DNA from: Microvirga tunisiensis
GTDB lineage: Bacteria > Pseudomonadota > Alphaproteobacteria > Rhizobiales > Beijerinckiaceae
Length of the DNA stretch: 64,000 nt
Direction: 5' to 3'
NCBI RefSeq assembly: GCF_009296175.1
Contig: NZ_VOSK01000001.1
Span: 1 to 64,000, forward strand
Shown here: positions 9,559-53,231 of the stretch, piece after piece
Position numbering within the stretch: position 1 is the stretch's first letter
How the letters are laid out: every line of letters begins with the position of its first letter
Translations under genes and position numbers: made by a program
The notes under the pieces: model-generated
Seen by the model: the letters and a program-made list of their open reading frames with translations, nothing else
Databases searched by the model: none
What the model was told of the DNA's origin: nothing

Positions 9559-10141
9559 CCAATTCCTCCCATGTGGCGTGGCGAGATCTCGCGGCTACGC
9601 CAGCGTCCGAAGTAAGTCCGTCGAGAGCAATTAGACGAACTTCACCGTTTTCTTTGACGCTCCGACGATTCTTCAGGCTCAACTCGCGCCATAACGTCTG
9701 GCTCAAGTTCGACTTAAGGAAGTCCAGCGTCGTTTTCTCAGTAATCTCACTTAATGGGATATGTGTCAACTAAGCTGGCGGTCCGGGTTGGCAGGAGATA
9801 CCCGCTTCTGCGACCAAGAGTTTTGTTTCAACCTCGTTAGAGCGAAGGGCAACCTAGGATGCAAAGGCGATCGAATTCAAACGGTGGGAGGTGCCATTTC
9901 GTGCCGCATCATTGCAGTGGGTGTTCATACATGCAGACACGCTCGGTCAGTGAAAGTGGAGCTATCTACGGGGCTCGATTCAAATCACCTGGCAAAGACG
10001 ATAAACAAGGGCCGTCACCTTCGCCGGACACGCAGCACGGTTTGGGCTAACAGGCGCGTATATAGAAATAATCCCGCTTAGTAGGACAGCTTGGGATAGG
10101 CTTGCGCAAACACGATGCTCGGCGCGTGAGCCCGCCGTTCA
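9559..10141. other. Intergenic region with operator copy and possible LysR remnant
   Basis: It holds the operator at 9744-9760. Around 9940-10010 on the plus strand a short stretch reads SVKVELSTGLDSNHLAKTIN. This resembles the effector-binding domain of LysR regulators (...VELSTGLSSDLL...), but it is too short to be certain. Nothing else was recognised. Confidence 0.35.
9744..9769 (-). promoter_or_regulatory. Common 17-bp operator copy 1, with -35 box
   Basis: ATCTCAC-TTA-ATGGGAT at 9744-9760 is an imperfect palindrome (five of seven positions pair). On the minus strand a perfect TTGACA (9769-9764) precedes it, so the palindrome occupies the spacer of a promoter pointing at the alcohol dehydrogenase gene. 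The -10 box is weak (ATTACT or GATTAC). Confidence 0.55.
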
Positions 10142-12262
10142 TCACAGCAGTTTGTCCGGTGTAATGGGCAACTCGCGGATGCGCTTCCCTGTCGCGTGGA
10201 AGATTGCATTCGCGATCGCAGGTGCAACGCCAACAATCGCGATCTCGCCAACACCCTTAACGCCAAGCGGGTTCACATGCGGGTCGTGCTCATCGATAAA
10301 GATGGCTTCCATTTCCGGTGGATTGTCTGCATGCACTGGGATTGCATACTCGGCAAGATTTGCGTTCACGGCGCGGCCATTGCGCCGATCCATGGGTGAA
10401 TGCTCCATTAGCGCCATGCCTATCCCGCCAACCATGCCTCCGATAACTTGGCTACGCGTCGTCTTCGGATTCACAATACGGCCAAGTCCATAGCTGCCCA
10501 CGATACGATTGACCCGCGCTTCGCAGAGGTCCGGGTCGACAGCAACTTCCGCGAAGACAGCGCCGAACGCATGCATCGAGAAGCGTTTCTTGGCGTCGCC
10601 GGGCGTGAAATGGAACAAAGTCTCATAAGGATGCTCAAGCCGGCGGATCGCTTCTGCGATGTCGTTGGTGCTTGCGTTCGCAAGTATGCTGGCGCGCGCC
10701 TTCTGGCATGCTCCCTGAACGGCACTGCCGACGCTGGCGGTCGTCATAGATCCCCCATGTACGGACGCGCGGGGCAGTTTCGTGTCGCCAAGGTTGAACC
10801 TCACCTTTCCCACAGGAAGACGTAGCGTCTCTGCGGCGATTTGGGTCATGGTCGTCCACGTCCCTGGGCCCATGTCGCTAGCGGCGCTCACCACTTCAGC
10901 TGTTCCGTCAGGCAAGAGTCGCACCAGCGCTGAGGCCGCCTGAAGATGTACGGGATATGTGGCGCTGGCCACGCCCCATCCAATCAGCTTGTGGCCGTCG
11001 CGCATTGAGCGCGGTTGTGGATTGCGCTGGCTCCAGCCGAACCGTTCAGCCGCAAGCCTATAGCATTCCTGCATCGAGCGGCTCGAGAACGGACGGTCCT
11101 GTGCCTCGTCCCGGGTGGGTTCGTTGCGCAGTCGCAGTTCGACCGGATCGATACCCAGGGCGAATGCCAGTTCGTCCATCGCGGATTCCATGGCAAAGAT
11201 CCCGCTCGCCTCACCTGGAGCACGCATGTACGTCGGCGTGTGAACGTTCAGAGGTGCCAGACGATGGCGGGTGTACACGTTGGAGCAAGAGTACAGAAAC
11301 TTTGTCGCGTGGGGCAGCGACTCCCGGAATTCCTCATAGGTGGAGGTTTCCTGCCAGCCATCGTGCAAGATCGCCGTAAGCCTTCCGTCCCTCGACGCCC
11401 CCAAGGCGAAACGCTGTACCGTGTATGGCCTGTAACCAACGCCATAATACATCTCGCGTCGCGATAGCATGAGCTTGACGGGCCGTCCGACGACGCGGGC
11501 AGCAAGTGCTGCGAGGGTTACGTGGGGCCAAGTTCGGAGTGCCGCACCGAAAGCGCCGCCGACAAACGGGGATATGACGCGGACGTCCTCCGAAGATATA
11601 TCAAACACGGAGGCGATTTCATCCGCAACGTTGTGGAGCCACTGCGTCTTGTCCCAGAGCGTCAGCTTGTCCCCATCCCAAGCGGCAACCGTCGCGTGCG
11701 TCTCAAGCGGATTGTGATACTGTCGCGGGATGACATAAGTCTGGTCGACCTTGACTTCGGCTGCCGCGAGGCCTGCGTCGGCATCGCCGCGGCGAGTTTC
11801 GGACGGATGTGTGGTGCTGTTTCCTGGGCTTACAGGCTGAGCCTGAGTTGCATCCGTTGAAGCAGTGGCAGATGCGTAGACAACTCTCACTAGGGAAGCT
11901 GCATGGAGGGCCTGCTCCAACCGGTCAGCAACCACAAGCGCAACGGGCTGGCCCTGGTGGTTCACTTCATTGCTCTGAAGCACGTGCAAGCGCTCTCCGA
12001 CGACCGGATCCGGATCGCCTTTGTGGGCACGATACGGCAGCTTCGGCGCGTTCTGATGGGTCAGAATGGCTACGACCCCGGACGCTTGCTCGGCTTCTGA
12101 CAGATCAATTGAGACGATCCGGCCGGCAGCAATCGTGCTCCTGGCAATCGCAGCATAGGCTTGTCCCGGCTGGTCGAACTCCGCTGCGTAGGTCGCGCTG
12201 CCCGTAACCTTCTTGCGGCCGTCAACGCGGCTCAGTGGCATGCCTATGATTGCCGTGCTCAT
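10142..12262 (-). CDS. Molybdenum hydroxylase, molybdopterin-binding large subunit (xanthine dehydrogenase/YagR family)
   Basis: A 706-residue catalytic subunit of a three-component molybdo-flavoprotein. It belongs to the xanthine dehydrogenase/aldehyde oxidase superfamily and would hydroxylate an aldehyde or N-heterocycle with water. The N-terminal a/b-hammerhead domain starts VDGRKKVTGSATYAAE. The molybdopterin part shows FVGGAFGAAL, YMRAPGEASGIFAMESAMDE and, near the C-terminus, GVKGVGEIAIVG, which carries the catalytic Glu. The length matches YagR/PaoC-type short large subunits. Its start overlaps the stop of the FAD subunit by 4 bases (ATGA). The order small-FAD-large matches paoABC. The substrate is unknown. 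No cofactor-insertion chaperone (XdhC/PaoD type) follows in the operon. Confidence 0.9.
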   Translation of the reverse strand: MSTAIIGMPLSRVDGRKKVTGSATYAAEFDQPGQAYAAIARSTIAAGRIVSIDLSEAEQASGVVAILTHQNAPKLPYRAHKGDPDPVVGERLHVLQSNEVNHQGQPVALVVADRLEQALHAASLVRVVYASATASTDATQAQPVSPGNSTTHPSETRRGDADAGLAAAEVKVDQTYVIPRQYHNPLETHATVAAWDGDKLTLWDKTQWLHNVADEIASVFDISSEDVRVISPFVGGAFGAALRTWPHVTLAALAARVVGRPVKLMLSRREMYYGVGYRPYTVQRFALGASRDGRLTAILHDGWQETSTYEEFRESLPHATKFLYSCSNVYTRHRLAPLNVHTPTYMRAPGEASGIFAMESAMDELAFALGIDPVELRLRNEPTRDEAQDRPFSSRSMQECYRLAAERFGWSQRNPQPRSMRDGHKLIGWGVASATYPVHLQAASALVRLLPDGTAEVVSAASDMGPGTWTTMTQIAAETLRLPVGKVRFNLGDTKLPRASVHGGSMTTASVGSAVQGACQKARASILANASTNDIAEAIRRLEHPYETLFHFTPGDAKKRFSMHAFGAVFAEVAVDPDLCEARVNRIVGSYGLGRIVNPKTTRSQVIGGMVGGIGMALMEHSPMDRRNGRAVNANLAEYAIPVHADNPPEMEAIFIDEHDPHVNPLGVKGVGEIAIVGVAPAIANAIFHATGKRIRELPITPDKLL

Positions 12263-13257
12263 GAACGTTCCCTGGCAGTTTCGAGCGCACGCACAATGGC
12301 TCGCTGCATGAGTTCAATCTTAAAGTCATTGTGGCCATGACCGCACGCTCCGTCCGCAGCGAGCGCCGCCGCCGCACGAAGGGCAGGCGCCTCGCCGGAG
12401 GACCCGGTGAGCGCGGCCTCCACATTCCGCAGGCGCCACGGCTTTGTCGCGACCCCGCCAACGGCAACACGCGCTTGGGCTATGCGTCCATTCTCAATTG
12501 CGATGGCCACTGCTACAGAAGTCATCGCGAATTCAAAAGATGCTCTGTCGCGTACCTTGAGATAGTGCGAGTTCCGTGCCATCGGACTTGCGGGCACGAT
12601 GATTGCTGTAACCATTTCACCAGCTTCAAGAACACTTTCAATGTGTGGCGTTGTACCGGGAAGCTGATGGAACTCCTCCATAGAAACTATGCGCTCGCCA
12701 TTGGAATGAGCGATCACGACGCGAGCGTCGAGGGCTGCCAAGGCAACCGCCAGATCCGAGGGGTGGACGGCGATGCAGTCGGGGCTCGCTCCTAGCACCG
12801 CATGCCATCGGTTCTCGCCACCGATCGCGGCACAGCCCGAGCCGGGTGCGCGCTTGTTGCACGCATCGTAGCCGACGTCCCGAAAATAAGGGCAGCGCGT
12901 GCGTTGCAGGATATTGCCGCCGAGGGTGGCTTGGTTGCGCACCTGGGGGCTGGCCGAATTGAGCAATGCTTGGACAATGACAGGATAGCCGTCGGCGACC
13001 CCCGAATGGGCGGCTACGTCTGCCATGGTCGCTCCTGCGCCGAGCCGGAGTACCTCCGAGCTAACCTCAATCCGACTGTCGAGGAGACCCGCCAGACTGA
13101 TCAGCTTGTGCGGATGTCGAACATTCTCCTGTAGGAGTTGAACCATATCCGTCCCACCTGATATGTACTCTACCAATACGTCGTCTTGTCTCGCGCACGC
13201 ATGTATGGCCATCGCCGTTGAAAGGTCGCGCGGACGCGCAAGTTCGAACGGGTGCAT
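12259..13257 (-). CDS. Molybdenum hydroxylase, FAD-binding middle subunit (YagS-like)
   Basis: A 332-residue flavin subunit that passes electrons from the 2Fe-2S subunit. It opens with the family sequence MHPFELARPRDLSTAM. The FAD phosphate-binding loops are YISGGTDMVQLL at about 34-45 and RNQATLGGNILQRTRCPYFR. After these come CPYFRD, then CNKR and GSGCAA. These extra cysteines are typical of the YagS/PaoB branch, which holds an additional 4Fe-4S cluster (family knowledge). The gene starts 3 bases after the stop of the 2Fe-2S gene and overlaps the large subunit by 4 bases, so all three are surely co-translated. Confidence 0.9.
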   Translation of the reverse strand: MHPFELARPRDLSTAMAIHACARQDDVLVEYISGGTDMVQLLQENVRHPHKLISLAGLLDSRIEVSSEVLRLGAGATMADVAAHSGVADGYPVIVQALLNSASPQVRNQATLGGNILQRTRCPYFRDVGYDACNKRAPGSGCAAIGGENRWHAVLGASPDCIAVHPSDLAVALAALDARVVIAHSNGERIVSMEEFHQLPGTTPHIESVLEAGEMVTAIIVPASPMARNSHYLKVRDRASFEFAMTSVAVAIAIENGRIAQARVAVGGVATKPWRLRNVEAALTGSSGEAPALRAAAALAADGACGHGHNDFKIELMQRAIVRALETARERS

Positions 13258-13260
13258 TGC

Positions 13261-13994: not shown

Positions 13995-14003
13995 TACCCA
14001 GCC

Positions 14004-15044
14004 TTATTTGCACTCGTTCGGACCGCCGAACACCTCATTTGGCGAGGTCCATCCCTTGGCCATCGATTTCACGACATCACACAGGTTGTCCTTAGTGACC
14101 GCAACAATCGGCACAATATGGGTCGGCACTTCGCCGGCACCGTGATCGACCATCTTTTCATGGGGCGGTACTTGCTTGTTGGCCAGAGCAATCGCAGCCT
14201 TGATTGCGGAGCTGCCAAAATCATTAATGTCAGTGTAGACTGACATGGTCTGCGCACCACTCTTGATGAGCTTGAGGGTTGGCGTCTCAGCGTCATTTCC
14301 GCTGACGAACACTTTTCCCTCCAGATTGCGCGACTTCAATGCCTGGACGGTGCCGGTTGCCATGGAATCGTTCATGACCATGAATGCGGCGATATTGTCA
14401 CTGTTGGCCGACAGGGCATTTTCTGCATGAGCCTGCGCGGCGGTCGGGCTCCAGCCCGTTGTATACTGGTCGAACACTACCTTGATTGATTCGTTTCCCT
14501 GCAGCACATCTTTCCACCCCTTCACAAATGCGGGGAGTTCTTGCCATTGGGTATCACCCTTGATCATTGCATAGTTGCCCTTTGGAGCAAACTTCAGCGC
14601 CTCTTTAGCTTGCAGAACCCCGACCTGATAGTTGTCTCGAGTGATGTAGAAGTCGACCTTCGCGGTCGTGACTCCGCCGTCATACGCAATGACCGGAACA
14701 CCGGACTCCTTAGCCGACTTGACGATGGGTCCCGCTGAAGCGCCGTTGACCGGACAAATGATCAGGACATCAGGATCGCGGGCGAGCAGACTCTCAACCT
14801 GCGACGCCTGCTTGATGGGGTCGCCATTCGCATACTCAAATCGAAGCTCGACGTTATGCTTCGCAGCTTCCGCCTCCATTACTGCGCGGTCCACCGCCCA
14901 GCGCTGCTCCTGCTGTCGTTGGAACGAGACGGCAACCAGTAACTTGCCATCCGCCGTCTTTGCGATTGCCGGCAGACTGATTGCCGTGCAGGTCAAGATA
15001 ATCGATGCACCAAAGGTACGTGCAACAACATTTCTCAGCGTCAT
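14004..15044 (-). CDS. Sugar-type ABC transporter substrate-binding protein (RbsB/XylF family)
   Basis: A 346-residue periplasmic binding protein of the type I (PBP1, ribose/xylose) class. The start at 15044 (MTLRNVVART) is preferred: it follows GGAGGAAGCTGACG and begins a Sec signal peptide ending near PAIAKTADG. The mature part shows VAVSFQRQQEQRWAVDRAVM, the hinge-type segment PDVLIICPVNGASAGPIV, IAYDGGV and FVSGNDAETPTL. No permease or ATPase is directly adjacent. The minus-strand permease and ATPase at 5614-8314 are the most likely partners and also carry the common operator. An operator copy lies 130 bases upstream at 15174-15190, and a strong hairpin follows the stop. Confidence 0.9.
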   Translation of the reverse strand: MTLRNVVARTFGASIILTCTAISLPAIAKTADGKLLVAVSFQRQQEQRWAVDRAVMEAEAAKHNVELRFEYANGDPIKQASQVESLLARDPDVLIICPVNGASAGPIVKSAKESGVPVIAYDGGVTTAKVDFYITRDNYQVGVLQAKEALKFAPKGNYAMIKGDTQWQELPAFVKGWKDVLQGNESIKVVFDQYTTGWSPTAAQAHAENALSANSDNIAAFMVMNDSMATGTVQALKSRNLEGKVFVSGNDAETPTLKLIKSGAQTMSVYTDINDFGSSAIKAAIALANKQVPPHEKMVDHGAGEVPTHIVPIVAVTKDNLCDVVKSMAKGWTSPNEVFGGPNECK

Positions 15045-15674
15045 CGTCAGCTTCCTCCACACCTTCGTTCATTCGATTGATTGTCCGCAGGGCACTTGCG
15101 GCCGATGCTTCGGGGTATGCGATTTTTTCGAATGCTATCTCAGCGGACAAAAACCCTCTCACAAACATAAATAATCGTCAATAGTGAGATTTATTATAAA
15201 TAATGGTGCGGTCGGCAAGTTTGCCCGAGCGCGTCGGTTTACATTCCCATAGGAGGGAATGGTCTTCCTCATCGGGCGTGCCGACGCGGAAGACCGGCCG
15301 GAAGGGTCCTGCACTGGCTCTGGCTGACATTTTTGATCGGGCTACTCACAATCGATCAGGGATAACACGTCGCCCTGGTTCGGAGACTTCACAAGTGCCG
15401 ACGATTATAAGACTTTTCGTTCGATATCATTATCGCGCTGGCTTCGCTTGGGCCGTAAGTACATGGTTCGCGCAACTCCTCCGTGCCGATACGCATGCTT
15501 TTCATGGTGTAGAGAGACTACGTACCCATGATGGGACTAGGACAAATGGGCATTGTAACGGCCGTGCTTGACAACTAGGCGCACCTTTATAGATTCGCAT
15601 ACTGCGACATTCTTTATGTGCCAGAACGCAGCCCTGCAGGGTTGTTTTTCCGACAAGCCAAGTGAAGGTCAGTG
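15045..15674. other. Divergent intergenic region with operator copy
   Basis: It separates the minus-strand binding protein from the plus-strand SDR. It contains the operator at 15174-15190 in an AT-rich patch (TTATTATAAATAATGG just after it). No gene was recognised in the remaining 480 bases. Confidence 0.5.
15174..15190. promoter_or_regulatory. Common 17-bp operator copy 2
   Basis: ATCGTCA-ATA-GTGAGAT, with the conserved right half RTGRGAT followed by TTATT as in other copies. It is 130 bases before the binding-protein gene (minus) and 485 bases before the SDR (plus). TTGACG on the minus strand (15181-15176) may be a -35 box, but no good -10 follows. Confidence 0.5.
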
Positions 15675-19619: not shown

Positions 19620-21077
19620 TCAAACTCGTGACCTTCCCGTGTTGCGACTACTTTCGTCGTGCATGTCGCCCTGCCACAAGATGGCCAGCTTTGCCACGTC
19701 ACCGATCGTTTCGAGATCCATGATTGCTGTGATCACCTGATCGGAGCGTTCCGGCGAGAGCACACGCGAGGCACAATGACGGAATTTGTCGGCGAGATCA
19801 TTATCAGACATTCTTGTCTCAGGAGTTGCCGGCGAGCCCTTGCGGTACTTGCGCTCCTCGACGAACGTTACGCCGCGTGCGAAAATTTCTACCTTGCCGA
19901 TGCGGCTCTGTGGCTCCTTGGTGAGCAGTTGTTCGAAGTCAGGATGCGGCTCAATCTGCACCTTCTCCATGAACGCGAGGTACTTTTTACTGCGGAGACT
20001 TTCATCGTCGTGCCATTCGGGGCCCGGCCTGAGGCCATGGATCGCCATCGATACTGCGTAGGCTGTGTTCATTTGCGCGTCGCTGGGCGTTTGGATTGTC
20101 TTAGCCGAGTAGAGCGGCAGTTTCGCAGTATGAGAGTCACTGTAGGTGACAATTCTATCGATTTCCTCAGGCGTGATCTCGTGTACTTCGATCAGATTAA
20201 AGATGCAGTCGAGAATGGTGTGCGTGTTGCGGCAATGCGGATATGGCTTGTAGATCGTAACCGCAGGGAACTTCCATTCATCGTAAAGCCGGTCCATCAA
20301 CGCATCAGGATTCCACTTTGTTGAGCCCATGAAACGCCAGAAACCATGTTCGCCTTCAAGTATTTCAGTGTCGCCCGAATAGCCGGCCTCTGCGAGCTGT
20401 ACTGCCGTCAACTCTGCTTGGGCCATCCATCCCGACATCAGATACTTATTGTCAGGCCCGGGGACGGTGCGCCCCCATTTGGACATGCTCTGCGCAGGCG
20501 CCATATGCCCAGCGAGTCCCATAGCATAGCCGGTCTGTCGCGCGTCGAGGCCGCGCAGCAGGGACGATGCCAGGGTGCCTCCGAAAATGGTACTGCTGAA
20601 ACCGCTGATAGATGGCAACGTAAGCTTCTGCCCCGGCGTAACGTCGCGGTAGTATCCCATGGCAAGGCCGAAGCGAGTCGACACTTCGTGCGAAATCGCG
20701 ATCGCGGCAATCAGGTCCTTGCCGGAGCGATGCTGACCTTCCGCCATCGCGAGACTGGCAGGCAGAACATAGGGCGTCACGTGACCCGGGGGGATCGTGA
20801 GCAAATCAAAGTCAATGGCATTGATCAGTTCCCCGTTAGCGAACGCTGCCGCGCCCATCGACAGCTTGTCCCCACTGCCAATCACCATAGATTCCGAGGC
20901 ACCGGACATAGCCCGTGCGGCCTTGAGCGCCTTGTGACCTTTATCCACGGTGAGACCGGCCAGTGCGCAACCAATCGAGTCCAAAAGGATACGTTTCGAT
21001 TCGACGATGACTTCGGTCGGCAGGTTTTCGAACCGCGACCGCTCACCAAATTCAACCAGCTTCGGGATAAGGGCCAT
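19620..21077 (-). CDS. MmgE/PrpD-family protein
   Basis: A 485-residue member of the 2-methylcitrate dehydratase/iminodisuccinate epimerase/cis-aconitate decarboxylase family. It begins with the typical VIVESKRILLDSIGCALAGL helix and contains NAIDFDLLTIPPGHVTPYVL, which carries the family Asp and His. Later come FWRFMGSTKWNPD and YPHCRNTHTILD with conserved His. The start at 21077 follows GGAGAAGTGATTT. It resembles the copy at 32457 more than the one at 58541. Paired with the BKACE gene, it is likely a dehydratase or decarboxylase acting on a hydroxy- or keto-acid. An operator copy is 198 bases upstream. Confidence 0.85.
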   Translation of the reverse strand: MALIPKLVEFGERSRFENLPTEVIVESKRILLDSIGCALAGLTVDKGHKALKAARAMSGASESMVIGSGDKLSMGAAAFANGELINAIDFDLLTIPPGHVTPYVLPASLAMAEGQHRSGKDLIAAIAISHEVSTRFGLAMGYYRDVTPGQKLTLPSISGFSSTIFGGTLASSLLRGLDARQTGYAMGLAGHMAPAQSMSKWGRTVPGPDNKYLMSGWMAQAELTAVQLAEAGYSGDTEILEGEHGFWRFMGSTKWNPDALMDRLYDEWKFPAVTIYKPYPHCRNTHTILDCIFNLIEVHEITPEEIDRIVTYSDSHTAKLPLYSAKTIQTPSDAQMNTAYAVSMAIHGLRPGPEWHDDESLRSKKYLAFMEKVQIEPHPDFEQLLTKEPQSRIGKVEIFARGVTFVEERKYRKGSPATPETRMSDNDLADKFRHCASRVLSPERSDQVITAIMDLETIGDVAKLAILWQGDMHDESSRNTGRSRV

Positions 21078-21274: not shown

Positions 21275-21291
21275 ATCCTCCAATACAGGAT
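21275..21291. promoter_or_regulatory. Common 17-bp operator copy 3
   Basis: ATCCTCC-AAT-ACAGGAT, extended by one base on each side to a 6-bp arm AATCCT/AGGATT. It lies midway between the divergent MmgE/PrpD gene (198 bases) and the binding-protein gene (182 bases). The right half matches the consensus at five of seven positions, so it is one of the weaker copies. No clear -35/-10 pair was assigned. Confidence 0.4.
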
Positions 21292-21472: not shown

Positions 21473-22585
21473 ATGGTGTTAGAAGTGTCACGGCGTTCGG
21501 CCATCCTATCAATGGCTGTGTTGGGGGCTCTGGCGCTGCCAGGCGCAAGTTTCGCTCAAAGTGGGACAAAGTCCGGCAAAATCGGCGTCATTGTACAATT
21601 GAGTGGGATCGGAGCGAGCTACGGGGTTGGCGTGCAGCATGCAATTGAAATCGCCAAACAGGAGCTGAAGCAAAAAGGTGTTATCGATCTCGAGGTTTTC
21701 TACGAAGATCATCAGCAGCAGCCGCAGCTTGCGGTCACTGCATTTCAGAAGCTGATCGACGCCCGTAGCGTCGTGGCTGTGCTGGCTAATTCGAGCCCAG
21801 TCAATCAGGCAATGAATCCAATCGCCAAAAGCCGTGGCGTTCAGGTCTACAACTTCAACGCGGTTTCACCAGCGTTGCGTAAGCTTGGCCCGTGGCTCAT
21901 CAACGGAAGTCCCTTGGCCGATGATGATGGCGCCGTCCTAGCCAAACATATGATAGGCCTCGGATTCAAGTCAGCCGCGGTTCTCAGCGAGAACGATGAA
22001 TTCGGCGTGTCGGTGTCCGACGCATTCATATCAGCGTACAAGGCAGCGGGCGGGAACATTGTTGCTCATGAGGTCAACAATGTCGGCAACATCGACATGC
22101 GGACGCAACTCTACAAGATCAAGAGCGCCCGTCCAGACTCGCTCGTCGTTTTCTGCAATATTCCGGAAAATGGCTACGCATTCGTACAGGCGCAGGAAAT
22201 CGGCCTTGAAGCCGCCTACTTCGCAAACCAGTTCATCATCAATCCAGAAAACTTCAAGGTGGGCGGCGCGGCGCTGAACGGCGTTCGCGGGGTTGCTCCC
22301 AAGTTCGACCCCAACGCACCGAACGCACAGGAGTTTTCCGCCAAGTTTACCAAGGCAGCCGGGCGGCCTCCGGCTGCCTCGGACGCGCTTGCCTATGATG
22401 GAGCTCGGCTCGTTGGAGAAGCGATCGCAGCGGTCGGCAACGACTCGAAAGCGGTGGGCCAGTACGTTGTTAAGGTAAAAGACTGGCCGGGCGCCGTTGG
22501 CAATTACAACTTCGACAGCGATGGCGTTGCCAAACTTCCGTTCTCGTTCTTCACCCTTAAGGACGGTAAGGCAATCTACGAGTAA
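21473..22585 (+). CDS. Branched-chain-type ABC transporter substrate-binding protein (LivK-like)
   Basis: A 370-residue periplasmic protein of the Leu/Ile/Val-binding family, a group that often binds aromatic or other organic acids rather than amino acids. The start has a strong AAAAGGGAGGTAGTCT ribosome site. Residues 1-28 are an export signal with twin arginines (SRRSAILSM) ending SFAQSG, so Tat export is possible. The mature part has IGVIVQLSGIGASYGVG, FYEDHQQQPQLAVTAFQKLI (the DxxxxP-type loop region) and SDALAYDGARLVGEAI near the C-terminus. The gene converges with livFGMH, which lies 55 bases beyond its stop, an unusual opposite-strand layout for one transporter. Confidence 0.9.
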   Translation: MVLEVSRRSAILSMAVLGALALPGASFAQSGTKSGKIGVIVQLSGIGASYGVGVQHAIEIAKQELKQKGVIDLEVFYEDHQQQPQLAVTAFQKLIDARSVVAVLANSSPVNQAMNPIAKSRGVQVYNFNAVSPALRKLGPWLINGSPLADDDGAVLAKHMIGLGFKSAAVLSENDEFGVSVSDAFISAYKAAGGNIVAHEVNNVGNIDMRTQLYKIKSARPDSLVVFCNIPENGYAFVQAQEIGLEAAYFANQFIINPENFKVGGAALNGVRGVAPKFDPNAPNAQEFSAKFTKAAGRPPAASDALAYDGARLVGEAIAAVGNDSKAVGQYVVKVKDWPGAVGNYNFDSDGVAKLPFSFFTLKDGKAIYE

Positions 22586-26186: not shown

Positions 26187-26236
26187 GCTATACGCGCTCG
26201 TTCGATGTCAGTCAAGAAAATCCCGCAGTGCGCGAC
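26187..26236 (-). promoter_or_regulatory. Common operator copy 4 with promoter for livHMGF
   Basis: The palindrome reads ATCCCGC-AGT-GCGCGAC at 26220-26236; on the minus strand its right half is GCGGGAT followed by TTTCTT, as in copies 5 and 8. Immediately downstream on that strand are TTGACT (26215-26210), a 17-base spacer and TATAGC (26192-26187). The operator therefore sits just upstream of the -35 box. It could also serve the divergent SDR at 26417. Confidence 0.5.
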
Positions 26237-31636: not shown

Positions 31637-32456
31637 TCCCTTATCTCCGTTGCGTTCGCCTGGATCGGACGAAATGCTTGTCGGCTTGACCAGGCTGAAC
31701 GTCTCGGCGGGCGATACATCTGTCGACTTCACATTTCTGCCTTACGCCGGGACTCTCAGCTGTACGCTCGCTGCACGTAATCGGCAGGAGCCGCTCACTA
31801 AGTAAGAGGGATAAATTCAGATCGACAGCGCGCCAGCGATCATTTCAGCCGCCTCCTACTTTGTTGAGATCACTGTATCTATCAATTATTCAACGATATG
31901 TCAATCCGTGGGATTTCTTTTAATGAATATCATCCCTGTGCGCAAAAGGTTAGCGGAGTTGCGTGCCTCGGAGAATATTTCCAGGCTTGGTTGGTGGCGG
32001 GCACGGATCTGTGACGTTAAGTGGGTGCACTAAGAATGGCACTCGGCGCTGCTATTCCGGACCTCTGGGGATGCCGTTAACGTGAAGAGTTGAGACAACT
32101 CTGCCTGTCTTCCCGTTCGATAGGATCCCACGCTCCGTTGGATACCCTCTTCCAATCTAGACAGGCATATGATTTGTTTCGCGATCATCGCCCGAATTAA
32201 TGTCTGCGGAACGTCGGAACTGGTTCGGCAACTGATCATAGCCGAAAAGTAAAAAGGCCGCTGAGTTCATGATGCCGCTTGCGCTTCTGACACAGGGCGA
32301 GAAAACAGGCTGTCGGGTCCGCAGACCACAACAACGGGCGCCCGCTGCTCTCCTCTTGCCCGTCAGTTTCGGATACAGCAGCGGCGCGACCTCGGTCATG
32401 CGGCCATGCGTTCATCTCTCAAATGTTGCGTGTTGCCCGGCAACTCGCAGTCCCGT
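31637..32456. other. Intergenic region with operator copy 5
   Basis: It lies between the aldehyde dehydrogenase start and the stop of the upstream MmgE/PrpD gene. It contains the operator/promoter at 31876-31914. The remaining bases show no convincing gene or element. Confidence 0.45.
31876..31914 (-). promoter_or_regulatory. Common operator copy 5 with promoter for the aldehyde dehydrogenase
   Basis: ATGTCAA-TCC-GTGGGAT at 31898-31914, followed by TTCTTT. The complement of its left part forms TTGACA (31904-31899) on the minus strand, with a 17-base spacer and TAGATA (31881-31876), so the operator overlaps the -35 box. Its sequence is almost identical to copy 8 (shared ATGTCAAT and GTGGGATTTCTT). 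Confidence 0.55.
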
Positions 32457-33890: not shown

Positions 33891-34616
33891 TGCTCTTAGC
33901 CTACATATTGTCGTGTGATCTTCCTGCTGCGCGTAATGACCCGGCCTTCAAGGTTCATTAATAAGCCAGCAGCAATCACGGTTGCAGCATCCAGACGGCA
34001 CACTAACCGGATTTCTCCTACGGAGGAAGTCCCTATATATAAGATTTTTTGATGACATGACGCATTCTCCATGGTAGTGTTTAACCTGTGTCGACGAGCA
34101 GGCTTCAAAATTGAGGCACAACAAACATGCGCGCAGGATTGCACAGCGCCCCAGTTATCTACCGGCCCCAGCCCTTTATCAGTGGAATCTGAGCGTGGTC
34201 TCAGCGCGAAGTTATGTGCCGCGACCGAAGTCCTGCAGGCTAGGGCGCCGCAGTATGGGACGGGTGCTGATTAGCTCAAGACAGTACGTTTTCGCGCTGC
34301 CTCCCTATGGCAGCGAGCAAGCGAAGCCGCGACCGCATCTTCTACAATGATATTACCCTCTGGCTTCGGTTCTAAGGCGCCTCCAGAATTCAGCCGCGCC
34401 GCTATATCTCGTCATGGCCTCGCCCAATTTCGGCGAAGTGGCAGACCCTGTTTCTGTGATTTGGCGCCACTGCACCGTAGTTCCAGATCAATCAGACTTC
34501 TTGCTGGATCAACAGACAGGATGCAGAACATCAAGTGAAAGCAGGTGTCAGGAGAAAAGAGTTGCTCCGACACACGCGCAAGCTCCGCAAACCCTCGAAG
34601 TAACGGATGGATGGTA
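33891..34616. other. Divergent intergenic region
   Basis: It contains operator copy 6. The 550 bases between it and the SDR start hold no recognised gene; open frames here lack family features. Confidence 0.4.
34029..34045. promoter_or_regulatory. Common 17-bp operator copy 6 (weaker)
   Basis: GTCCCTA-TAT-ATAAGAT, with the right half matching RTGRGAT at six of seven positions and followed by TTTTTTG. It lies 139 bases before the minus-strand MmgE/PrpD gene and 572 bases before the plus-strand SDR. TATATA within it could be a -10 box on the minus strand. Confidence 0.35.
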
Positions 34617-35423: not shown

Positions 35424-37252
35424 GTCGGCCATCGAAGTCTGGTAATGCGAGAGCCGAGGGTTTTTCACGTGGAGCACGCGATGACGTGTTCCATCCCGTG
35501 GGACGCGCCTCGGCGATACAGACCGCAAGTGACTTGCCACAGGGCCCGCTACCGCGGAGGAGGCGCAGGTGTATGCCGCCCCGAAAAGCTGCCGAAGATA
35601 GCCGAGTAACATTCCATGGTCTAGACAAGACGGCGCGGCCGCGTTGACCGCGCGAGTGTGTATCGTTAGCTGGTTAATTAGGGAGAGCATGAGGCCACCG
35701 CGCCCCCAACCGTCTACGTAACCACCGCTCTCGCCTTCACGATGCGCTTTCGCCACTGCGGCTATCGGACCAGGAGCTTGAACCACCGCTCCGGCTCTTG
35801 TCGAGCGCGTCCGCGTGAGATCGCTTATGGTCTGGTGCGCCGCGTGCATTCACGCTGATGCAGCTTGCGTGATCGGAAGGACGCCTTCTCGTGTTTATTG
35901 GAGCGCCCTTAAGAACGCCCGCGAGTAGCAGCGAGAGTTGCTTGGAGATGCTTGCTACTAAGCCCTTCAGCCGGCACGCAATTCTCTTGGAGCAGCGGAC
36001 AAGAAAAGCCGGGCATAAAGCCCGGCTAAAGTTGAGGCCCGACAAGAGTCGGAACCTTTCAGAGGGAGTGGCCGATATGGCAGCGCCAGGAGGAAAAGGC
36101 GAAGCCAAGTAAAGATCAGCCAACGCAAATATCTCTTATATTGAGACTCTTTGCAACTATTCGTACAGCATGATGGGGCTTCGCTGAGCGCATGCCTTGC
36201 TACGCTCGTTCACGGGTTTTGCGGAGCGCGGAGCTGGCGCGCCTTGTATCCAACCGGACGCCTCATCCAATGCCTCCTCGGCTGTCACACGGAAAGCCAT
36301 AGGCTGCGGTGCCAAGGTGATACCTAGAAGCTCGTGTACGCAGCGGTTTCCTCGGCCAGACCCACTTCGCACAAGTTGCAAATGGCCTCGCCAGTGGGAA
36401 ACAGATCATGACTGCCGAGCTCCACTTGGAGCAGTCAGAGTTTCACCAACTCACCCACAGCGGCTGATCCTTCGGCAATCTTCCGGCCTATGACTGTTCT
36501 AGGGGCTTGCAGTCTTAGTCGAAGATTGGCGACAGCGATGCCAGCATATTTTAGCCCAGATACTCGCAATTATAGTTGGATCTGGTTCTTGATGTCCGGT
36601 GTCCCGTGGCCGGGGAAGAGGAACCAAGTAGCTGATGCCTGCCCCATGGATGACGGTATAGCCTTGATCTTTTAGCTTAGCGTCACTCGCTTCGAGTGAG
36701 TTAAGCCAGCCCTCTAGGAATATGCGCATAACTTCCTCATAGAGCTAGAAGTCGAGCGAAAAGAAGCTGCCGCAACACAGCATTACGCCGGCGGAAAACG
36801 ACGTCGCATACTTGTTTCCACCGAGCAAACACGACGACCCCTGATGCAATCGGCAAAGAAGCCTACCGTAAGCAATTTTGTGCGAGGAGAACGCCTCGCC
36901 CAGAGCGGCTCTTGCGTCTCCTGCGGGATTGGCTTGTCGACTTCCTTCTCCGCCATGCCTCTTCGCGTGGCAGGATGGCCCCGCCAAGCATAGGCCGTCA
37001 TGGCCGCAGGAATCCTTATACACGTCAAGGATTTCCTCGACGTGGTGGTGCCCAAAGCCGTGCACCACGCGGGAATACAATGTAGTGAGGCAGTGCGAAT
37101 AATGCTGGTTGCGAACTCTGTCGAGATTGATGGCATTGTAAGTGCCAAGCATTGGATCGACGCAGTTAATCCCGCTCAATTTCATTGCCCGAAAAGGTTC
37201 CGCGCCAAGGGCGCCCCCAGCGTGGAAGGTTTAGCCCAGGAACTCCTATTCT
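35424..37252. other. Decayed region without intact gene
   Basis: About 1.8 kb. Several stretches look like former coding DNA on the minus strand: 36499-36740 (IFLEGWLNSLEASDAKLKDQ and so on), 36157-36381 and 36745-37185 (VVHGFGHHHVEEILDVYKD). None keeps a full domain and no family could be named. A terminator-like hairpin is at 36007-36027 and a possible operator relic, ATCTCTT-ATA-TTGAGAC, is at 36131-36147. Confidence 0.4.
36003..36027 (-). terminator. Terminator-like hairpin (minus strand)
   Basis: AGCCGGGC (36007-36014) and GCCCGGCT (36020-36027) are perfect complements around ATAAA. Read on the minus strand the stem is followed by TTTCTT, which suits a rho-independent terminator. The gene it once served is no longer recognisable. 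Confidence 0.6.
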
Positions 37253-38224
37253 TCACCACTGAGGTGGGCAGGTGTTGGCGTTGTCTTTTGTGATCAATGG
37301 GGGTTTGTACTCGACGAGTCGGGCCTTAGGTGTCTTGGGATCGGTAGCGGCCTCATAAAGTGATTTGGCTCCAAGCTGACCCACATTTATCCACGTTTCG
37401 CACATCGACACGGTAATTTCACCGGATTTGACCAATGGGATGCCGAGTTTCGAGCCACCAGCAGCGGTGAATAGCTTTGCCTTTGATCCTGCGTCTCTGA
37501 TGGCTTTGGCGCAACCAATCGCCATGTCTTCCGCGTGGCTGAAGAACAAATCAATATCGGGATCGGCTACAAGAGCATTCTGACAAACCGCTTCGCCCTT
37601 GGCCGGGGTCCAGTCGGTTGGCTGCGACATAACTATTTTGTACTTGGACCCAGCGGCGTCGAGACTTGCCTTGAATCCCGCCGAGAGCTGATTGACAAGT
37701 GCGTAACCCGGCATGCCTTCGACAATTCCGATCTTGGCGGTACGATCAGTTGGCAACATAGTCGCAGCCGTCTCGCCGAGACGTTGGCCAGACGAGATAT
37801 AGTCCTGCCCAACTAAGGCGGAAAGTCCAGGATAGACCTCCTTAAATTTCCGCTTGTTCGGATCACCCACCTGCACGGCAACAGCAGTGAACGGAATTTT
37901 GGCCTCGTTCGTCTTATCGACCCATGTCTGCGCTACCACGCTGTCAAGGATGATCACAGCGATGCCATCCACCTTCTGCGCGATTAAATCGTCGACAGCA
38001 TTGGACATTTTTTCAACGCTTCCCCTGGCATCAAGGATGAGGACTTTGGCGCCCAGCTTCTCGCCCTCTTCCTTGAAGCCTTTGGTCATCGATACCTCGG
38101 CCGGATTCTGCTGGTTCGTGGTAACGAATGCTATGGTGATGTCTTTTGAATGCGCTGCAGTGCCAGCAAGCATCAATGTCGCGGGAAAGACGAAAGCCCC
38201 GACTCGCATGAACTTTTTTTGCAT
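37253..38224 (-). CDS. Sugar-type ABC transporter substrate-binding protein (RbsB-like), orphan
   Basis: A 323-residue periplasmic PBP1-type protein. The start at 38224 has a strong GGGAGGAAAAT ribosome site and a Sec signal peptide (FVFPATLMLAGTAAHSKD). The mature sequence has ITIAFVTTNQQNPAEVSMTK, the VDGIAVIILDS hinge strand and GETAATMLP. There is also CQNALVADPDIDLFFSHAED near the ligand cleft. No permease or ATPase is nearby. The ATPase and permease at 47956-50777 lack a binding protein and also carry the common operator, so they could be partners. Operator copy 7 and a promoter lie 181-210 bases upstream. Confidence 0.9.
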   Translation of the reverse strand: MQKKFMRVGAFVFPATLMLAGTAAHSKDITIAFVTTNQQNPAEVSMTKGFKEEGEKLGAKVLILDARGSVEKMSNAVDDLIAQKVDGIAVIILDSVVAQTWVDKTNEAKIPFTAVAVQVGDPNKRKFKEVYPGLSALVGQDYISSGQRLGETAATMLPTDRTAKIGIVEGMPGYALVNQLSAGFKASLDAAGSKYKIVMSQPTDWTPAKGEAVCQNALVADPDIDLFFSHAEDMAIGCAKAIRDAGSKAKLFTAAGGSKLGIPLVKSGEITVSMCETWINVGQLGAKSLYEAATDPKTPKARLVEYKPPLITKDNANTCPPQW

Positions 38225-38999
38225 ATTTTCCTCCCATATGCAGACAAGTTGATTGACTACACAACGGCAGCATGTTGTTCGGTTGCCGCTGTCTCGGATG
38301 GGTTCACGCTCCCATCACCATTCCACATAGAAATTCCCCTGACTGACCTTTAAGTGCCAATGCGAGGGCGTCATACGCTGCTTAAAAGCAGTCTCAGTGC
38401 AGAGATGATATCCTACAAAATGAGATTTTGTCAAACGAGAATAAACTGAGTCTGCCGGGTATCTCCGCTTTGCCTGTCCCTGGTCGTCGCATGTGGGAGT
38501 GTTGCCTCTCACGCTTGTGTACATGGGATCTATCGTTTTCAGTTACGGGTGGCGCAATTTTCTTTCCTCCGTGCTCTTTGCGCGGGATGGGTTTGATTAA
38601 GTGCGCGCATTAAGAGCATAATTCGATGTGAATGAGAGGGGCGCGGGCCTAGCCGTAGCAACTCTTCTGTTCGGTTTCTTTGTTTCCTGCTTTTGGCAAT
38701 GCTCACGTTATTGCCTTGCGTGAGCGCCTACTTAGCATTCGTCATTGATGCAATGCGATATGCGTAGACATCATCATCACGAAACGGCAGTCAGCCAGAG
38801 ATCCGAGAGTAGCTCTCCTAATATCGGAGGGCGTCGGATTGAGATGACTGAGTATTCAGTTGCTCTCCTACACCCCAGGTACTGCTAGCCTCGTAGAGAG
38901 CAGTCCCATCTGGTGTAGGAACGATCTCAACCGGTGCCGAGACTGGGAACTTCTTTGGTCCTAGATCAGAAATCCGCTTTGGTTCTCTGGACTTTCTCT
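38225..38999. other. Intergenic region with operator copy 7
   Basis: Apart from the operator/promoter at 38405-38434 there is no recognised gene. A loose inverted repeat (TCCTACACC ... GGTGTAGGA) lies between about 38866 and 38923. Confidence 0.45.
38405..38434 (-). promoter_or_regulatory. Common operator copy 7 inside a promoter
   Basis: ATCCTAC-AAA-ATGAGAT at 38410-38426; a second, perfect palindrome, ACAAAAT-GAG-ATTTTGT, overlaps it. On the minus strand TTGACA (38434-38429), an 18-base spacer and TATCAT (38410-38405) form a good promoter for the binding-protein gene. The operator fills the spacer, where a bound protein would block RNA polymerase. Confidence 0.65.
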
Positions 39000-46169: not shown

Positions 46170-46994
46170 TCAATTGCTGTGGGTGTAGCCACCGTCGCAA
46201 GCAATCGTCTGCCCTGTTATGAAGGACGCTGCTGGCGTCGTGAGGAACATCATAAGTCCCACCAAATCCGTTGGCATCATGCCGCGAGGAATGCACTGGA
46301 GATCTGCATTACGTTTGCGCACCTCGGCCGTCGGATTTACCGTGCGCTCGACCTCGGTAGCAACACTGCCCGGTCGAATACAATTTACCGTAATGCCGAA
46401 GGGTCCGAGTTCACGAGCAAGAGAGTTGGTCATGCCAATTACGGCAGATTTGGATGTTACGTAGTGAAGATAATTGACTGTTCCGCGTGGCACGGAGTCG
46501 GACGAAATGTTGATGATGCGGCCCCAGCCTGCCTTACGCATCGATGGCGCAACAGCACAAGCACCAAGGAATGTCCCCGTAATATTGACCTTCATCACTC
46601 GCTCCCATTCGGCAAGTGGAATCTGGTCGAACGGTCGCTTTTCAAGCGTAGCGAAAATAGAGGCATTGTTCACCAAGGCATCCACTCTGCCGAACTCTTT
46701 CAGCACTGCGGCTACCATCTCATCAACGGAACCCTTGTCCGCGACATCGACCTCTAAAGCCAAAGATGAGCCACCGGCAGCAGCAATCTCTGACGAAACC
46801 GATTCTGCATTTTTTTGATTGAGATCAGCGATGACCGGTATTGCGCCGGCTGCTGCGAACTGTCGGGCAAGTTCACGGCCGATCCCCTGACCGGCTCCAG
46901 TAATAATGACGACGCGATCTTGCACACCGAAGTCGCGCGCGAAGGCCGGAACACCGGAGTCCTTTGGAGCATGTGTGGCGAGAGCTTCACTCAT
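46170..46994 (-). CDS. SDR-family oxidoreductase
   Basis: A 274-residue SDR with a 27-residue N-terminal extension before the Rossmann fold. TGAGQGIG is at about residues 32-39, IADLNQ after the second strand, VNNASIF in place of NNAG, INISSDSVPRG gives the Ser, and YVTSKSA-type sequence (HYVTSKSAVIG) gives Tyr and Lys. It ends CDGGYTHSN. It is the first gene of the unit with the small ORF and SMP-30 lactonase. An alcohol-to-lactone oxidation followed by hydrolysis is plausible. Operator copy 8 and a promoter are 195-233 bases upstream. Confidence 0.85.
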   Translation of the reverse strand: MSEALATHAPKDSGVPAFARDFGVQDRVVIITGAGQGIGRELARQFAAAGAIPVIADLNQKNAESVSSEIAAAGGSSLALEVDVADKGSVDEMVAAVLKEFGRVDALVNNASIFATLEKRPFDQIPLAEWERVMKVNITGTFLGACAVAPSMRKAGWGRIINISSDSVPRGTVNYLHYVTSKSAVIGMTNSLARELGPFGITVNCIRPGSVATEVERTVNPTAEVRKRNADLQCIPRGMMPTDLVGLMMFLTTPAASFITGQTIACDGGYTHSN

Positions 46995-47188: not shown

Positions 47189-47227
47189 GGAATAGCAATG
47201 GCGTCGAGTTATGTCAATAGGTGGGAT
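47189..47227 (-). promoter_or_regulatory. Common operator copy 8 with promoter for the SDR/SMP-30 unit
   Basis: ATGTCAA-TAG-GTGGGAT at 47211-47227, followed by TTCTTG. On the minus strand TTGACA (47217-47212), a 17-base spacer and TATTCC (47194-47189) follow, so the operator overlaps the -35 box. This is the same layout as copy 5, which it nearly duplicates. Confidence 0.55.
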
Positions 47228-47452: not shown

Positions 47453-47480
47453 TTGACATAATCCCACATTAAGAGATAAT
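47453..47480 (+). promoter_or_regulatory. Common operator copy 9 inside a promoter for the ABC operon
   Basis: TTGACA (47453-47458), a 16-base spacer and GATAAT (47475-47480) form a near-consensus promoter. The operator ATCCCAC-ATT-AAGAGAT (47461-47477) fills the spacer. Its complement reads ATCTCTT-AAT-GTGGGAT. Layout and sequence resemble copies 1 and 7. It points toward the small ORF at 47766 and the ATPase gene at 47956. Confidence 0.65.
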
Positions 47481-47912: not shown

Positions 47913-47955
47913 ACGGTGAACTTCAACAGGAATTCGAAGTCACGGGAGAGTTGGA

Positions 47956-49524
47956 ATGCCGTCAACGGATAACGCTCCGCTTATGCGTCTCGAAGGTGTA
48001 ACCAAGACATTCGGGAACACAGTGATAGCCCTCCGCGGTGTCGATTTGGAGATCGAGCGCGGCAAGGTTCATGGACTGCTGGGGGCAAATGGAGCCGGCA
48101 AATCAACTCTGATTAAAATCCTTTCAGGCACGTTCCGAGCATCAGGTGGCACAATCGCGTGGAAAGGCTCGACCGTAAATTGGTCGAGCCCCAAAGAGGC
48201 AAATGCGACGGGTGTTGCGACTATCCACCAGCACATCCCTCTCGTACCTACGCTCTCGGTGCTCGAGAATGTCTTTCTAGGTGAAGAGGGCCGCTGGCGG
48301 CGCTCAAAGTCGCTACGGCAAAAGTTCGAGGACATATGCGCACGCGTCGGCTACTGGATCGATCCTGATCGACTCGTTGGGGATTTGCCCATCGGGCAGC
48401 GCCAGATGACGGCGATCTTTCAAGCGCTGGGAACCGGTGCGGAACTGATCGTTATGGACGAACCGACTGCGTCCCTCGCCACCGAAGAGCGCGAATTGGT
48501 GTATCGTATCGTCCATCGGCTTTCTCGTGTGGAGAACAGGGCGATCCTGTTCGTGTCGCACTTCCTCGACGAAGTTATGGCATTGACCGACTCTGTTACG
48601 GTCCTCCGTGATGGACAGGTGGCCATGCGTGCCGACACGAGGGATCTCGATGAAGGCCGCCTCGCCGAAGCGATTGTCGGACGGCAGATCATTGCCCTTG
48701 AGAAAGCGGCACATGACCCAAACGCTCTCCGGCACCATACCGGAGCCCCGATCATATTGGAGTTACGTGGCCTCGCCTCCCCGGACAAGTTCGCGCCTGT
48801 CGACCTGAAACTCGCGGCTGGAGATGTCGTGGGGATCGCGGGATTGCTCGGTTCGGGGCGGAGCGAACTACTCCACGCGATATTTGGGGCAGACTCCCAT
48901 GCCACCGGTGACGTTCAGGTGGATGGCCAATCAATTCGGCGGTCAACACAGGCTGCAGTGGCTGCGGGCCTCGGTCTTGTCCCTGAAGACAGGATGCAAC
49001 AAGGGCTGGTTCCGGAGTTTGAGCTGTGGCGGAACACCACCTTGCCCGCCTTGGCGGGCGTGTCCTTCGGTGGGATTCTTCCCGTTCGGGATCGCGAAAG
49101 AGAGAGAGGACGAGAGGCAATCGCGCGACTGAAAATCAAAGCACACTCGCCCGATGCGCTCATGAGGGAGTTAAGCGGAGGCAATGCCCAGAAGGTGACC
49201 ATCGCGAAATGGTTATTCAGCGACGTGAAAGTCTTCCTCCTCGACGAGCCAACAGCAGGCATCGACATCGGAGCGAAAGCCGACATTCTGAAACTGATCC
49301 GCGACCTCTCGGCCTCGGGGAAAGCGGTTATCATCGTGTCGTCGGAGTTCGAAGAATTGCTGGCTGTAAGCGATCGGATCCTCGTCATGCGCGACGGACG
49401 CATGGTTGCTGAGCGTGCCACGAGTGAAACAAACGAACACGAACTGATCCTACTTGCAGGCGGCAAAAGCGCGGAGCCGGCACCACCATCGCGAAGCGGC
49501 GCAACTTCTAAACAGAGCGAGTGA
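47956..49524 (+). CDS. Sugar-type ABC transporter ATP-binding protein (two ATPase domains)
   Basis: A 522-residue RbsA/MglA-type ATPase. Domain 1 has Walker A GANGAGKS at about residues 43-50, Q-loop IHQH, LPIGQRQMTAIFQAL as signature and LIVMDEPTASL as Walker B. Domain 2 has GLLGSGRSELLHAIFG, RELSGGNAQKVTIAKW and VFLLDEPTAGIDIG. The start follows GGGAGAGTTGGA. Its stop overlaps a possible GTG start of the permease gene. It belongs to a long plus-strand unit running at least to the MHS transporter. No binding protein is adjacent; the orphan at 37253 is a candidate partner. Confidence 0.9.
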   Translation: MPSTDNAPLMRLEGVTKTFGNTVIALRGVDLEIERGKVHGLLGANGAGKSTLIKILSGTFRASGGTIAWKGSTVNWSSPKEANATGVATIHQHIPLVPTLSVLENVFLGEEGRWRRSKSLRQKFEDICARVGYWIDPDRLVGDLPIGQRQMTAIFQALGTGAELIVMDEPTASLATEERELVYRIVHRLSRVENRAILFVSHFLDEVMALTDSVTVLRDGQVAMRADTRDLDEGRLAEAIVGRQIIALEKAAHDPNALRHHTGAPIILELRGLASPDKFAPVDLKLAAGDVVGIAGLLGSGRSELLHAIFGADSHATGDVQVDGQSIRRSTQAAVAAGLGLVPEDRMQQGLVPEFELWRNTTLPALAGVSFGGILPVRDRERERGREAIARLKIKAHSPDALMRELSGGNAQKVTIAKWLFSDVKVFLLDEPTAGIDIGAKADILKLIRDLSASGKAVIIVSSEFEELLAVSDRILVMRDGRMVAERATSETNEHELILLAGGKSAEPAPPSRSGATSKQSE

Positions 49525-49526
49525 TC

Positions 49527-50777: not shown

Positions 50778-50874
50778 GGCATACCGATGCAACTTAGCGA
50801 ACCGAGTTTTCCGTTCTTGGCGGTGGCGCGGATCGTCAGCCGATACTTGATCTTCAACTTGAAAGGAATGGAAA

Positions 50875-51648: not shown

Positions 51649-51757
51649 CGCTGACGTCATCCGGGAGGGAAGGCCACGCCAACACTATTCGGAAGTCGAG
51701 CCGGGCGCCCGGTCTTCCACAACTCGCCAAGGGTGATCGACTCTGGAGGACTACAAC

Positions 51758-53083: not shown

Positions 53084-53091
53084 TCCTCGAG

Positions 53092-53149
53092 GAGCGACCG
53101 CGCTCGAGTCCGTCAGGCGGTCTGCCTAGCGACGGCCGCTCTGTTTTTA
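53092..53149 (+). terminator. Terminator after the MHS transporter
   Basis: GAGCGACCG (53092-53100) pairs with CGGCCGCTC (53133-53141) with one mismatch, an inner AGGC/GCCT stem lies between them, and TGTTTTTAT follows. It starts 9 bases after the stop codon. Confidence 0.6.
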
Positions 53150-53201
53150 TAGCCCAAAGAGGGAAGACATGAGCAACCAGCCCACGAGCGGGCAATAAAA
53201 A

Positions 53202-53231
53202 CTTGCATAATGTGGGATTTATTTGTAGAAG
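53202..53231 (+). promoter_or_regulatory. Common operator copy 10 inside a promoter
   Basis: CTTGCAT-AAT-GTGGGAT at 53202-53218, followed by TTATTTG. TTGCAT (53203-53208), a 17-base spacer and TAGAAG (53226-53231) form a promoter aimed at the beta-hydroxyacid dehydrogenase gene 138 bases after the operator. The left half is poor, but the right half is a perfect RTGRGAT. Confidence 0.5.

Follow-up and report, generated by a model that had tools for sequence, protein, structure and literature searches.

A 17-bp palindrome before catabolic and transport genes of a probable Microvirga plasmid contig, and an IclR-family protein as its candidate regulator

The first 64,000 nucleotides of contig NZ_VOSK01000001.1 of Microvirga tunisiensis (assembly GCF_009296175.1), hereafter the window, carry catabolic and transport genes in many separate units, before which a 17-bp palindrome recurs with the predicted operator consensus WTCYCAY-W3-RTGRGAW. 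What might this palindrome do, and which protein might recognise it? The original prediction had listed ten copies, seven of them strong, and had proposed that a single regulator controls a dispersed catabolic regulon of about ten units through an operator that it could not name. The window corresponds to positions 1-64000 of a contig of 281,640 bp. This contig very probably represents a repABC plasmid from a Microvirga-like bacterium, since its 2.4-kb rep region (contig 168943-171314) matches plasmids of Microvirga lotononidis and Microvirga sp. VF16 at 97% and 96% identity, where it carries the annotation repA/repB. The assembly is marked as 8.8% contaminated.

We consider it likely that the palindrome is the operator of an IclR-family regulator encoded 5 kb beyond the window (contig 69367-70233, minus strand), and that this protein represses the dispersed operons. 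The argument is built on computed features, namely the motif, its intergenic enrichment, its co-occurrence with one clade of IclR proteins, its register with TTGACA and some orthologous sites, from which we infer binding, repression and release by an effector. The predicted regulon of this one protein would take in nine or ten units of the window and, beyond it, about five others of the plasmid, with contig sites at 68543, 70274, 73953, 76086/76298 and 130454/130581. The single regulator and the dispersed regulon first proposed from the window find backing in comparative evidence, from which binding and co-regulation are deduced.

The palindrome on the contig and on other plasmids

A symmetric weight matrix was built from the seven strong sites (the seven-site matrix) and, following the check that the original prediction had suggested, was scanned across five plasmids selected for carrying relatives (43-66% identity) of the contig IclR gene: Sinorhizobium meliloti pAK76 (66%), Sphingobium pEP1 (55%), Paracoccus versutus pBEN (53%), Caballeronia pNK81 (49%) and Allorhizobium ampelinum pAtS4e (43% over 76% of the length, 36% over the whole). 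pAK76 was scanned whole, pEP1 and pBEN over 141 kb each, pNK81 over 41 kb and pAtS4e over 31 kb; here and throughout, gene coordinates and intergenic status are those of our own simple gene caller. At 13 bits or more there were 33 intergenic matches in 95,348 bp against 6 coding matches in 430,260 bp (intergenic/coding: pAK76 4/0, pEP1 7/2, pBEN 18/1, pNK81 2/2, pAtS4e 2/1). None of 1000 permuted symmetric matrices reached 33 (mean 2.4, highest 31), nor did any of 100 dinucleotide shuffles (mean 2.2, highest 7).

DNA lacking a close relative of the IclR gene gave a different picture. At the same threshold there was no intergenic match in stretches of genome G059 (41 kb of intergenic DNA) or in two other host contigs (39 kb), nor on the plasmids with distant IclR relatives, Aminobacter pBAM2 (31%) and a Salipiger plasmid (40%). 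Footprinting through the transporter and short-chain dehydrogenase/reductase (SDR) genes of genomes G059 and G027 was unsuccessful; the best IclR matches in these genomes reach only 5.9e-10 and 7.0e-13, and the two therefore serve as negative controls. A scan of genome contigs with the binding protein as query found no relative.

The converse comparison was made with a matrix of the 33 intergenic sites from the other plasmids (the other-plasmid matrix), which were gathered with the window matrix, so that the two are not fully independent. It places nine of the ten listed sites within the top 20 of 281,624 contig positions; the tenth, at 26220, ranks 112. At 12 bits or more it finds 11 intergenic and no coding matches in the window, 7 intergenic and 2 coding between 64 and 165 kb (18 and 2 in total over contig 1-165 kb), and none of either kind in the backbone at 165-282 kb. 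Nine further contig sites emerged, at 10071, 36131, 68543, 70274, 73953, 76086, 76298, 130454 and 130581. With the seven-site matrix, 11 intergenic positions and one coding position of the contig score 13 bits or more, seven of the 11 being training sites (leave-one-out scores 10.6-21.4 bits); the best match beyond the window, 130581 (ATCCCAATGAGTGGGAT, 19.6 bits), precedes a gene run that opens with a periplasmic-binding-type gene at 130792.

Simpler statistics are less telling. Counting the degenerate string with up to three mismatches gave 26 matches in the window against 20.6 +/- 3.9 in shuffled sequence, a total reached by 10 of 100 shuffles; such plain counting is not significant and is uninformative. 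Enumeration of 6-bp dyads with gaps of 0-9 (about 41,000 words, p uncorrected) placed ATCTCA-N5-TGAGAT first in the intergenic DNA of the window, with 6 occurrences against 0.41 expected (p 4e-6, single-letter null), which is insufficient alone after correction for the number of words. In the intergenic DNA of the IclR-bearing loci L175-L179, the top two dyads were AATCTC-N7-GAGATT and the same ATCTCA-N5-TGAGAT. A genome-wide count of 202 against 34 for the reversed pattern was set aside, as the reversed pattern holds CTA/TAG words, which are rare in such genomes. Of the 17 listed places in the genome with at most one mismatch, 4 are on the contig, which makes up 3.2% of the assembly (binomial p 0.002); two of the 13 off the contig are letter-identical and may be copies, and the six of these 13 that were examined all overlap open reading frames (ORFs) of at least 80 aa. 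With six of the 13 covered, part of the regulon may still be chromosomal. A stricter, exact pattern was matched in 8 of 61 genomes.

The candidate regulator and its rivals

Counted from the ATG at 70233, the IclR protein would be 288 aa long (homologues have 285-293 aa); no clear ribosome site precedes that codon. A predicted operator lies about 40 bp before this ATG, or 139 bp before the start that was called first. The C-terminal effector domain is well matched (PF01614, 71.2 bits against a cut-off of 24); in its N-terminal part, the putative helix-turn-helix, the protein can be aligned with other clade members and is covered from residue 2 by NCBIfam IclR models, and recognition-helix residues R28, T30, Y32, R33 and Y34 are invariant in eight clade members. 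The best NCBIfam match is TIGR02431 (PcaR/PcaU/PobR, 3.8e-18), but membership of that group was rejected, the score of 65.7 bits being far below the curated 284.75. This is the only member of its clade in the host genome, where the next IclR match is at 1.7e-13. Among contig genes picked by eye, Pfam recognised two regulators of IclR type, one of LacI, two of LysR and two of MarR type, and a Crp-type helix-turn-helix fragment. The second IclR-family gene (161135-161935) has none of the 40 best contig positions upstream of it.

Clade membership tends to go with the palindrome in other genomes also. We scored 32 clade IclR genes (loci L108-L119 and L152-L171) and 16 from outside the clade (L120-L129 and L131-L136), L130, L172, L173 and L174 being unscored. 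Within 500 bp upstream, a site of at least 15 bits precedes 6 of the 32 clade genes against none of the 16 others, three of the six (L164, L165, L170) coming from one genus; at 10 bits or more the figures are 10 and 2 (rank test p 0.036). Some lower-scoring clade genes have diverged palindromes at a similar distance, for example TTCGCACTATTTGCGAA at 103 bp in L171.

The position of the palindrome relative to promoter elements bears on its mode of action. We took together 51 sites, 18 from the contig (including nine of the ten listed ones, without 26220) and the 33 from other plasmids. In nine of them (four among the 33) TTGACA precedes the operator start by 8 or 9 bases, and in five (three among the 33) it is found at +10, within the operator; one other match falls within -12 to +14, and 7 are spread across 125 offsets outside. 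The -8/-9 register is not built into the matrix, because the 17-mer excludes those offsets, whereas the +10 register is partly built in. All 14 sites in register face a gene, and five of them also have a nearby start on the opposite strand. An alternative reading of TTGACAT as a third IclR box was dropped: in the -8 register the letter that follows TTGACA is T or A, and TTGACA is therefore read as a -35 box only.

The -8/-9 register fits a repressor seated between the -35 and -10 boxes, and repression is the most likely mode. At the sigma-70-type promoters of scattered catabolic and transport operons, the IclR protein, as a dimer or tetramer, would occupy the spacer between the -35 and -10 boxes or cover the -35 box itself, and would exclude RNA polymerase until a pathway compound releases it; a site also precedes its own probable start codon. 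That the same protein binds these sites as an activator is a rival reading that we think unlikely. The IclR family includes activators and dual regulators, according to PMC8222616, and in the +10 register the operator extends upstream of the -35 box. Nine of the 14 sites in register, however, have the operator in the spacer immediately after TTGACA, where a bound protein is expected to block RNA polymerase.

It is improbable that the palindrome serves some other regulator instead, whether on the plasmid (LysR at 104344-105237 or 111262-112155, LacI at 84069-85088, the second IclR) or on the chromosome, where one may have gone unrecognised. The LysR, LacI and second IclR genes are all regulators confirmed by Pfam, and LysR orthologues (67-69%) are present on pBEN and pAK76, both of which bear the motif. 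Yet stretches around orthologues of these rivals that lack the clade IclR contained no intergenic match in 44,234 bp: none in 22,251 bp of Rhizobium leguminosarum pRL1 and R. ruizarguesonis pRlX2, which carry 75% orthologues of LysR 104344 among comparable catabolic genes (for a binding protein, a zinc dehydrogenase, an SDR and SMP-30) and no IclR match at 1e-5; none in 12,864 bp of LacI neighbourhoods (Azospirillum oryzae, Agrobacterium rubi), with one coding match; and none in 9,119 bp around second-IclR orthologues (Variovorax paradoxus, Roseomonas marmotae). Of the regulators considered, these controls covered LysR 104344, LacI and the second IclR. The motif is moreover found upstream of clade IclR genes in several unrelated genomes. 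The remaining rival, that the shared letters are a mere promoter likeness (-35 boxes in AT-rich intergenic DNA) chosen by eye, is very improbable: the right halves of 31898 and 47211 do read TTGACAT, a perfect -35 box, and neither the plain string nor the corrected window dyad is significant, but TTGACA at -8/-9 falls outside the 17-mer, and the 33 intergenic sites on IclR plasmids stand against none in 124 kb of promoter-containing intergenic DNA without the clade IclR.

Several results weigh against control by the IclR protein through this palindrome. For most clade IclR genes (22 of 32), the 500 bp upstream hold no match that reaches 10 bits. In 15 clade stretches, a matrix of the seven strong sites plus 130581 found 12 intergenic matches in 40 kb and 9 coding matches in 211 kb at 10 bits, and 3 and 2 at 15 bits; single matches therefore remain uncertain. 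pBEN alone supplies 18 of the 33 out-of-sample matches, although without it 15 matches still stand against none in IclR-free DNA (Fisher p 4e-7), and six of the 33 (L177:6867, L178:549, L182:31049, L187:328, L187:40423 and L188:23516) lie more than about 450 bp from any called gene start. For the 255-aa form of the protein, the Pfam helix-turn-helix model PF09339 (HTH_IclR) was not matched at 1e-5, only IclR_C being found. Only at 38410 and 47461 is there a clear -10 box (5 of 6 letters).

Conservation at orthologous operons, which the original prediction had named as a test, is partial. Of 48 reciprocal best pairs sharing at least 45% identity, 18 have a palindrome scoring 10 bits or more within 350 bp of the contig gene. 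The partner plasmid also has one in 7 of these; in the remaining 11, which also count against the proposal, it has none over the same distance, in part because the genes there belong to longer runs. Sites were kept at the MmgE/PrpD-like gene 72517 in pAK76, pEP1 and pBEN; at binding protein 37253 (185 bp on the contig, 187 bp on pBEN); at dehydrogenase 53356, whose pAK76 orthologue has CTTGCAATATTTGGGAT at 78 bp, retaining the odd half CTTGCA, while the pNK81 orthologue has none; and at the IclR gene itself (pNK81 14.8 bits, pBEN 10.0, pAK76 and pEP1 below 8 within 350 bp). The pBEN orthologues of SMP-30, the GMC oxidoreductase, an SDR and the ATP-binding cassette (ABC) ATPase have their own sites, that of the ATPase scoring 19.9 bits at 204 bp, whereas SMP-30, the GMC oxidoreductase and the SDR of the window lie downstream in same-strand runs and the window ATPase has site 47461 at 478 bp; some genes have switched operons between plasmids. 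Directly upstream of the pAK76 and pNK81 orthologues of the SDR and of the aldehyde dehydrogenase there is no site, but those of pAK76 lie within a same-strand run (ABC, SDR, aldehyde dehydrogenase) behind site 12437 (L175), which shares 16 of 17 letters with window site 47211. A second pAK76 run, of MmgE, KCE, nitrilase and cupin genes, lies behind site 19430 of L175. The densest set of sites is that of pBEN 86640-227398 (L177, L185, L186; 18 intergenic and 1 coding in 141 kb), where the record is unannotated. On pAK76, the conjugative plasmid of a nodule isolate, the segment 114940-155689 (L175) holds many orthologues of the window catabolic genes, the IclR gene (JFX10_RS25380) among them.

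Predicted operators in the window

All ten of the strings originally listed are present and intergenic, and only the weak site 26220..26236 (no strand assigned, 6.6 bits) lacks support. The best contig position under the other-plasmid matrix, from which the ranks of the other sites are also taken, is the predicted operator at 9744..9760 (minus strand; ATCCCATTAAGTGAGAT when read toward the gene), 185 bp upstream of a zinc-type alcohol dehydrogenase gene (8446-9558), beyond which that strand also carries genes for ABC ATPase and permease components and for an SDR; TTGACA at 9764..9769 (minus strand, offset -9) is the likely -35 box, with a weak -10. A possible extra site absent from the original list, ATCCCGCTTAGTAGGAC at 10071..10087, is intergenic and scores 12.7 bits, no strand being assigned. 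The predicted operator at 15174..15190 (minus strand, rank 8) lies 129 bp upstream of a xylF-like binding-protein gene (14004-15044), and that at 21275..21291 (no strand assigned, 12.8 bits, rank 17) lies between divergent genes, MmgE/PrpD-like (19620-21077) and a binding protein of branched-chain amino acid type (21473-22585).

Four more predicted operators of the minus strand follow. That at 31898..31914 (ATCCCACGGATTGACAT, rank 20), with TTGACA at 31899-31904 within its right half (register +10), is upstream of an aldehyde dehydrogenase gene (Aldedh; 30182-31567/31732). At 34029..34045 (15.0 bits, rank 9) a site stands 183 bp upstream of an MmgE/PrpD-like gene (32457-33845). The site at 38410..38426 (ATCTCATTTTGTAGGAT, rank 2) is 185 bp upstream of a sugar-type binding-protein gene (37253-38224); its promoter has TTGACA as the -35 box at 38429..38434 (minus strand) and TATCAT 18 bp onward as the -10. 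At 47211..47227 (ATCCCACCTATTGACAT, rank 7), 216 bp upstream of an SDR gene (46170-46994), TTGACA occupies 47212-47217 within the right half. On the plus strand, the predicted operator at 47461..47477 (ATCCCACATTAAGAGAT, rank 3) lies between a -35 box, TTGACA, at 47453..47458 and a -10 box, GATAAT, 16 bp onward (47475-47480), and faces an ABC ATPase gene (47956-49524); that at 53202..53218 (CTTGCATAATGTGGGAT, rank 14) lies 137 bp upstream of a dehydrogenase gene (53356-54267). The claim that each site lies 130-290 bases from a catabolic or transport gene start fails for 47461, whose two nearest starts are 466 and 478 bases away, and for 31898 depends on the start codon, the distance being 330 with ours and about 165 from the longest ORF. 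The reported absence of sites before pntA, the CoA-transferase genes and the insertion sequence at 1447-2781 was borne out, with best upstream scores of -1.0, 3.8 and 1.3.

A site at 36131..36147 (ATCTCTTATATTGAGAC, no strand assigned, 17.5 bits, rank 6) has no called gene around it. It lies in window 35424-37252, which likewise contains no called gene and is in parts 67-82% identical to several Microvirga plasmids (7 records); this segment is perhaps a decayed mobile or repeated element.

Some sites occur in pairs 127-250 bp apart within one intergenic region, as at contig 130454/130581, 76086/76298 and 47211/47461 and, on pBEN, at 21627/21791 of L177 and at 746/927 and 9462/9624 of L186. DNA looping between paired sites is possible, because IclR proteins can be tetramers.

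Relation to known operators and meaning

The group-1 operator consensus of IclR proteins is GKTYCRY-W3-4-RYGRAMC (Suvorova and Gelfand 2021, PMC8222616), and the palindrome shares its architecture of 7-bp half-sites around a W3 centre, with Y at place 4, C at 5 and A (R) at 6, as well as its placement before catabolic operons and before the regulator itself. In the 33 sites C/T reaches 0.88 at place 4, C 0.79 at 5, A/G 0.90 at 6 and A/T about 0.94 at 8 and 9. The outer letters differ: WTC...GAW, with C at place 3 (C 0.83, T 0.05), lies outside the TGT, GTT, WTT and NGT of the four subgroups listed in PMC8222616. Searches of open papers brought up no title or abstract that describes this operator.

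According to PMC8222616, the usual reach of an IclR protein is its own gene and one or two neighbouring operons. PlaR/YiaJ of Escherichia coli, an IclR-family protein, has 18 high-affinity targets (PMC6958661). The likeness lies in one IclR protein with many dispersed catabolic targets (here predicted); PlaR/YiaJ differs in being chromosomal and in its targets and sequence. PheR of Sphingobium sp. SHPJ-2 is an IclR repressor of a degradation cluster that is released by substrate, but its operator is a GC-rich 44-bp element with core GCAACG at one promoter (PMC13273656). With PlaR as precedent, many-target IclR proteins are already known; the operator predicted here is a variant.

We lean slightly towards a broader interpretation, a plasmid-borne catabolic regulon that is mobile and complete in itself. 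A single clade of IclR proteins, with an undescribed WTC-11-GAW operator at many promoters per plasmid and in a fixed -35 register, would travel with catabolic islands among the orders Hyphomicrobiales, Sphingomonadales, Rhodobacterales and Burkholderiales. The analysis provides a candidate regulator and operator code for the plasmid catabolic islands of rhizobia, sphingomonads, Paracoccus and Caballeronia, and its matrix can predict which scattered genes share a pathway, a relationship invisible from gene order, and so direct the hunt for substrate and effector. A plasmid-wide regulon, if true, would show one operator spread across many promoters during the assembly of a catabolic island.

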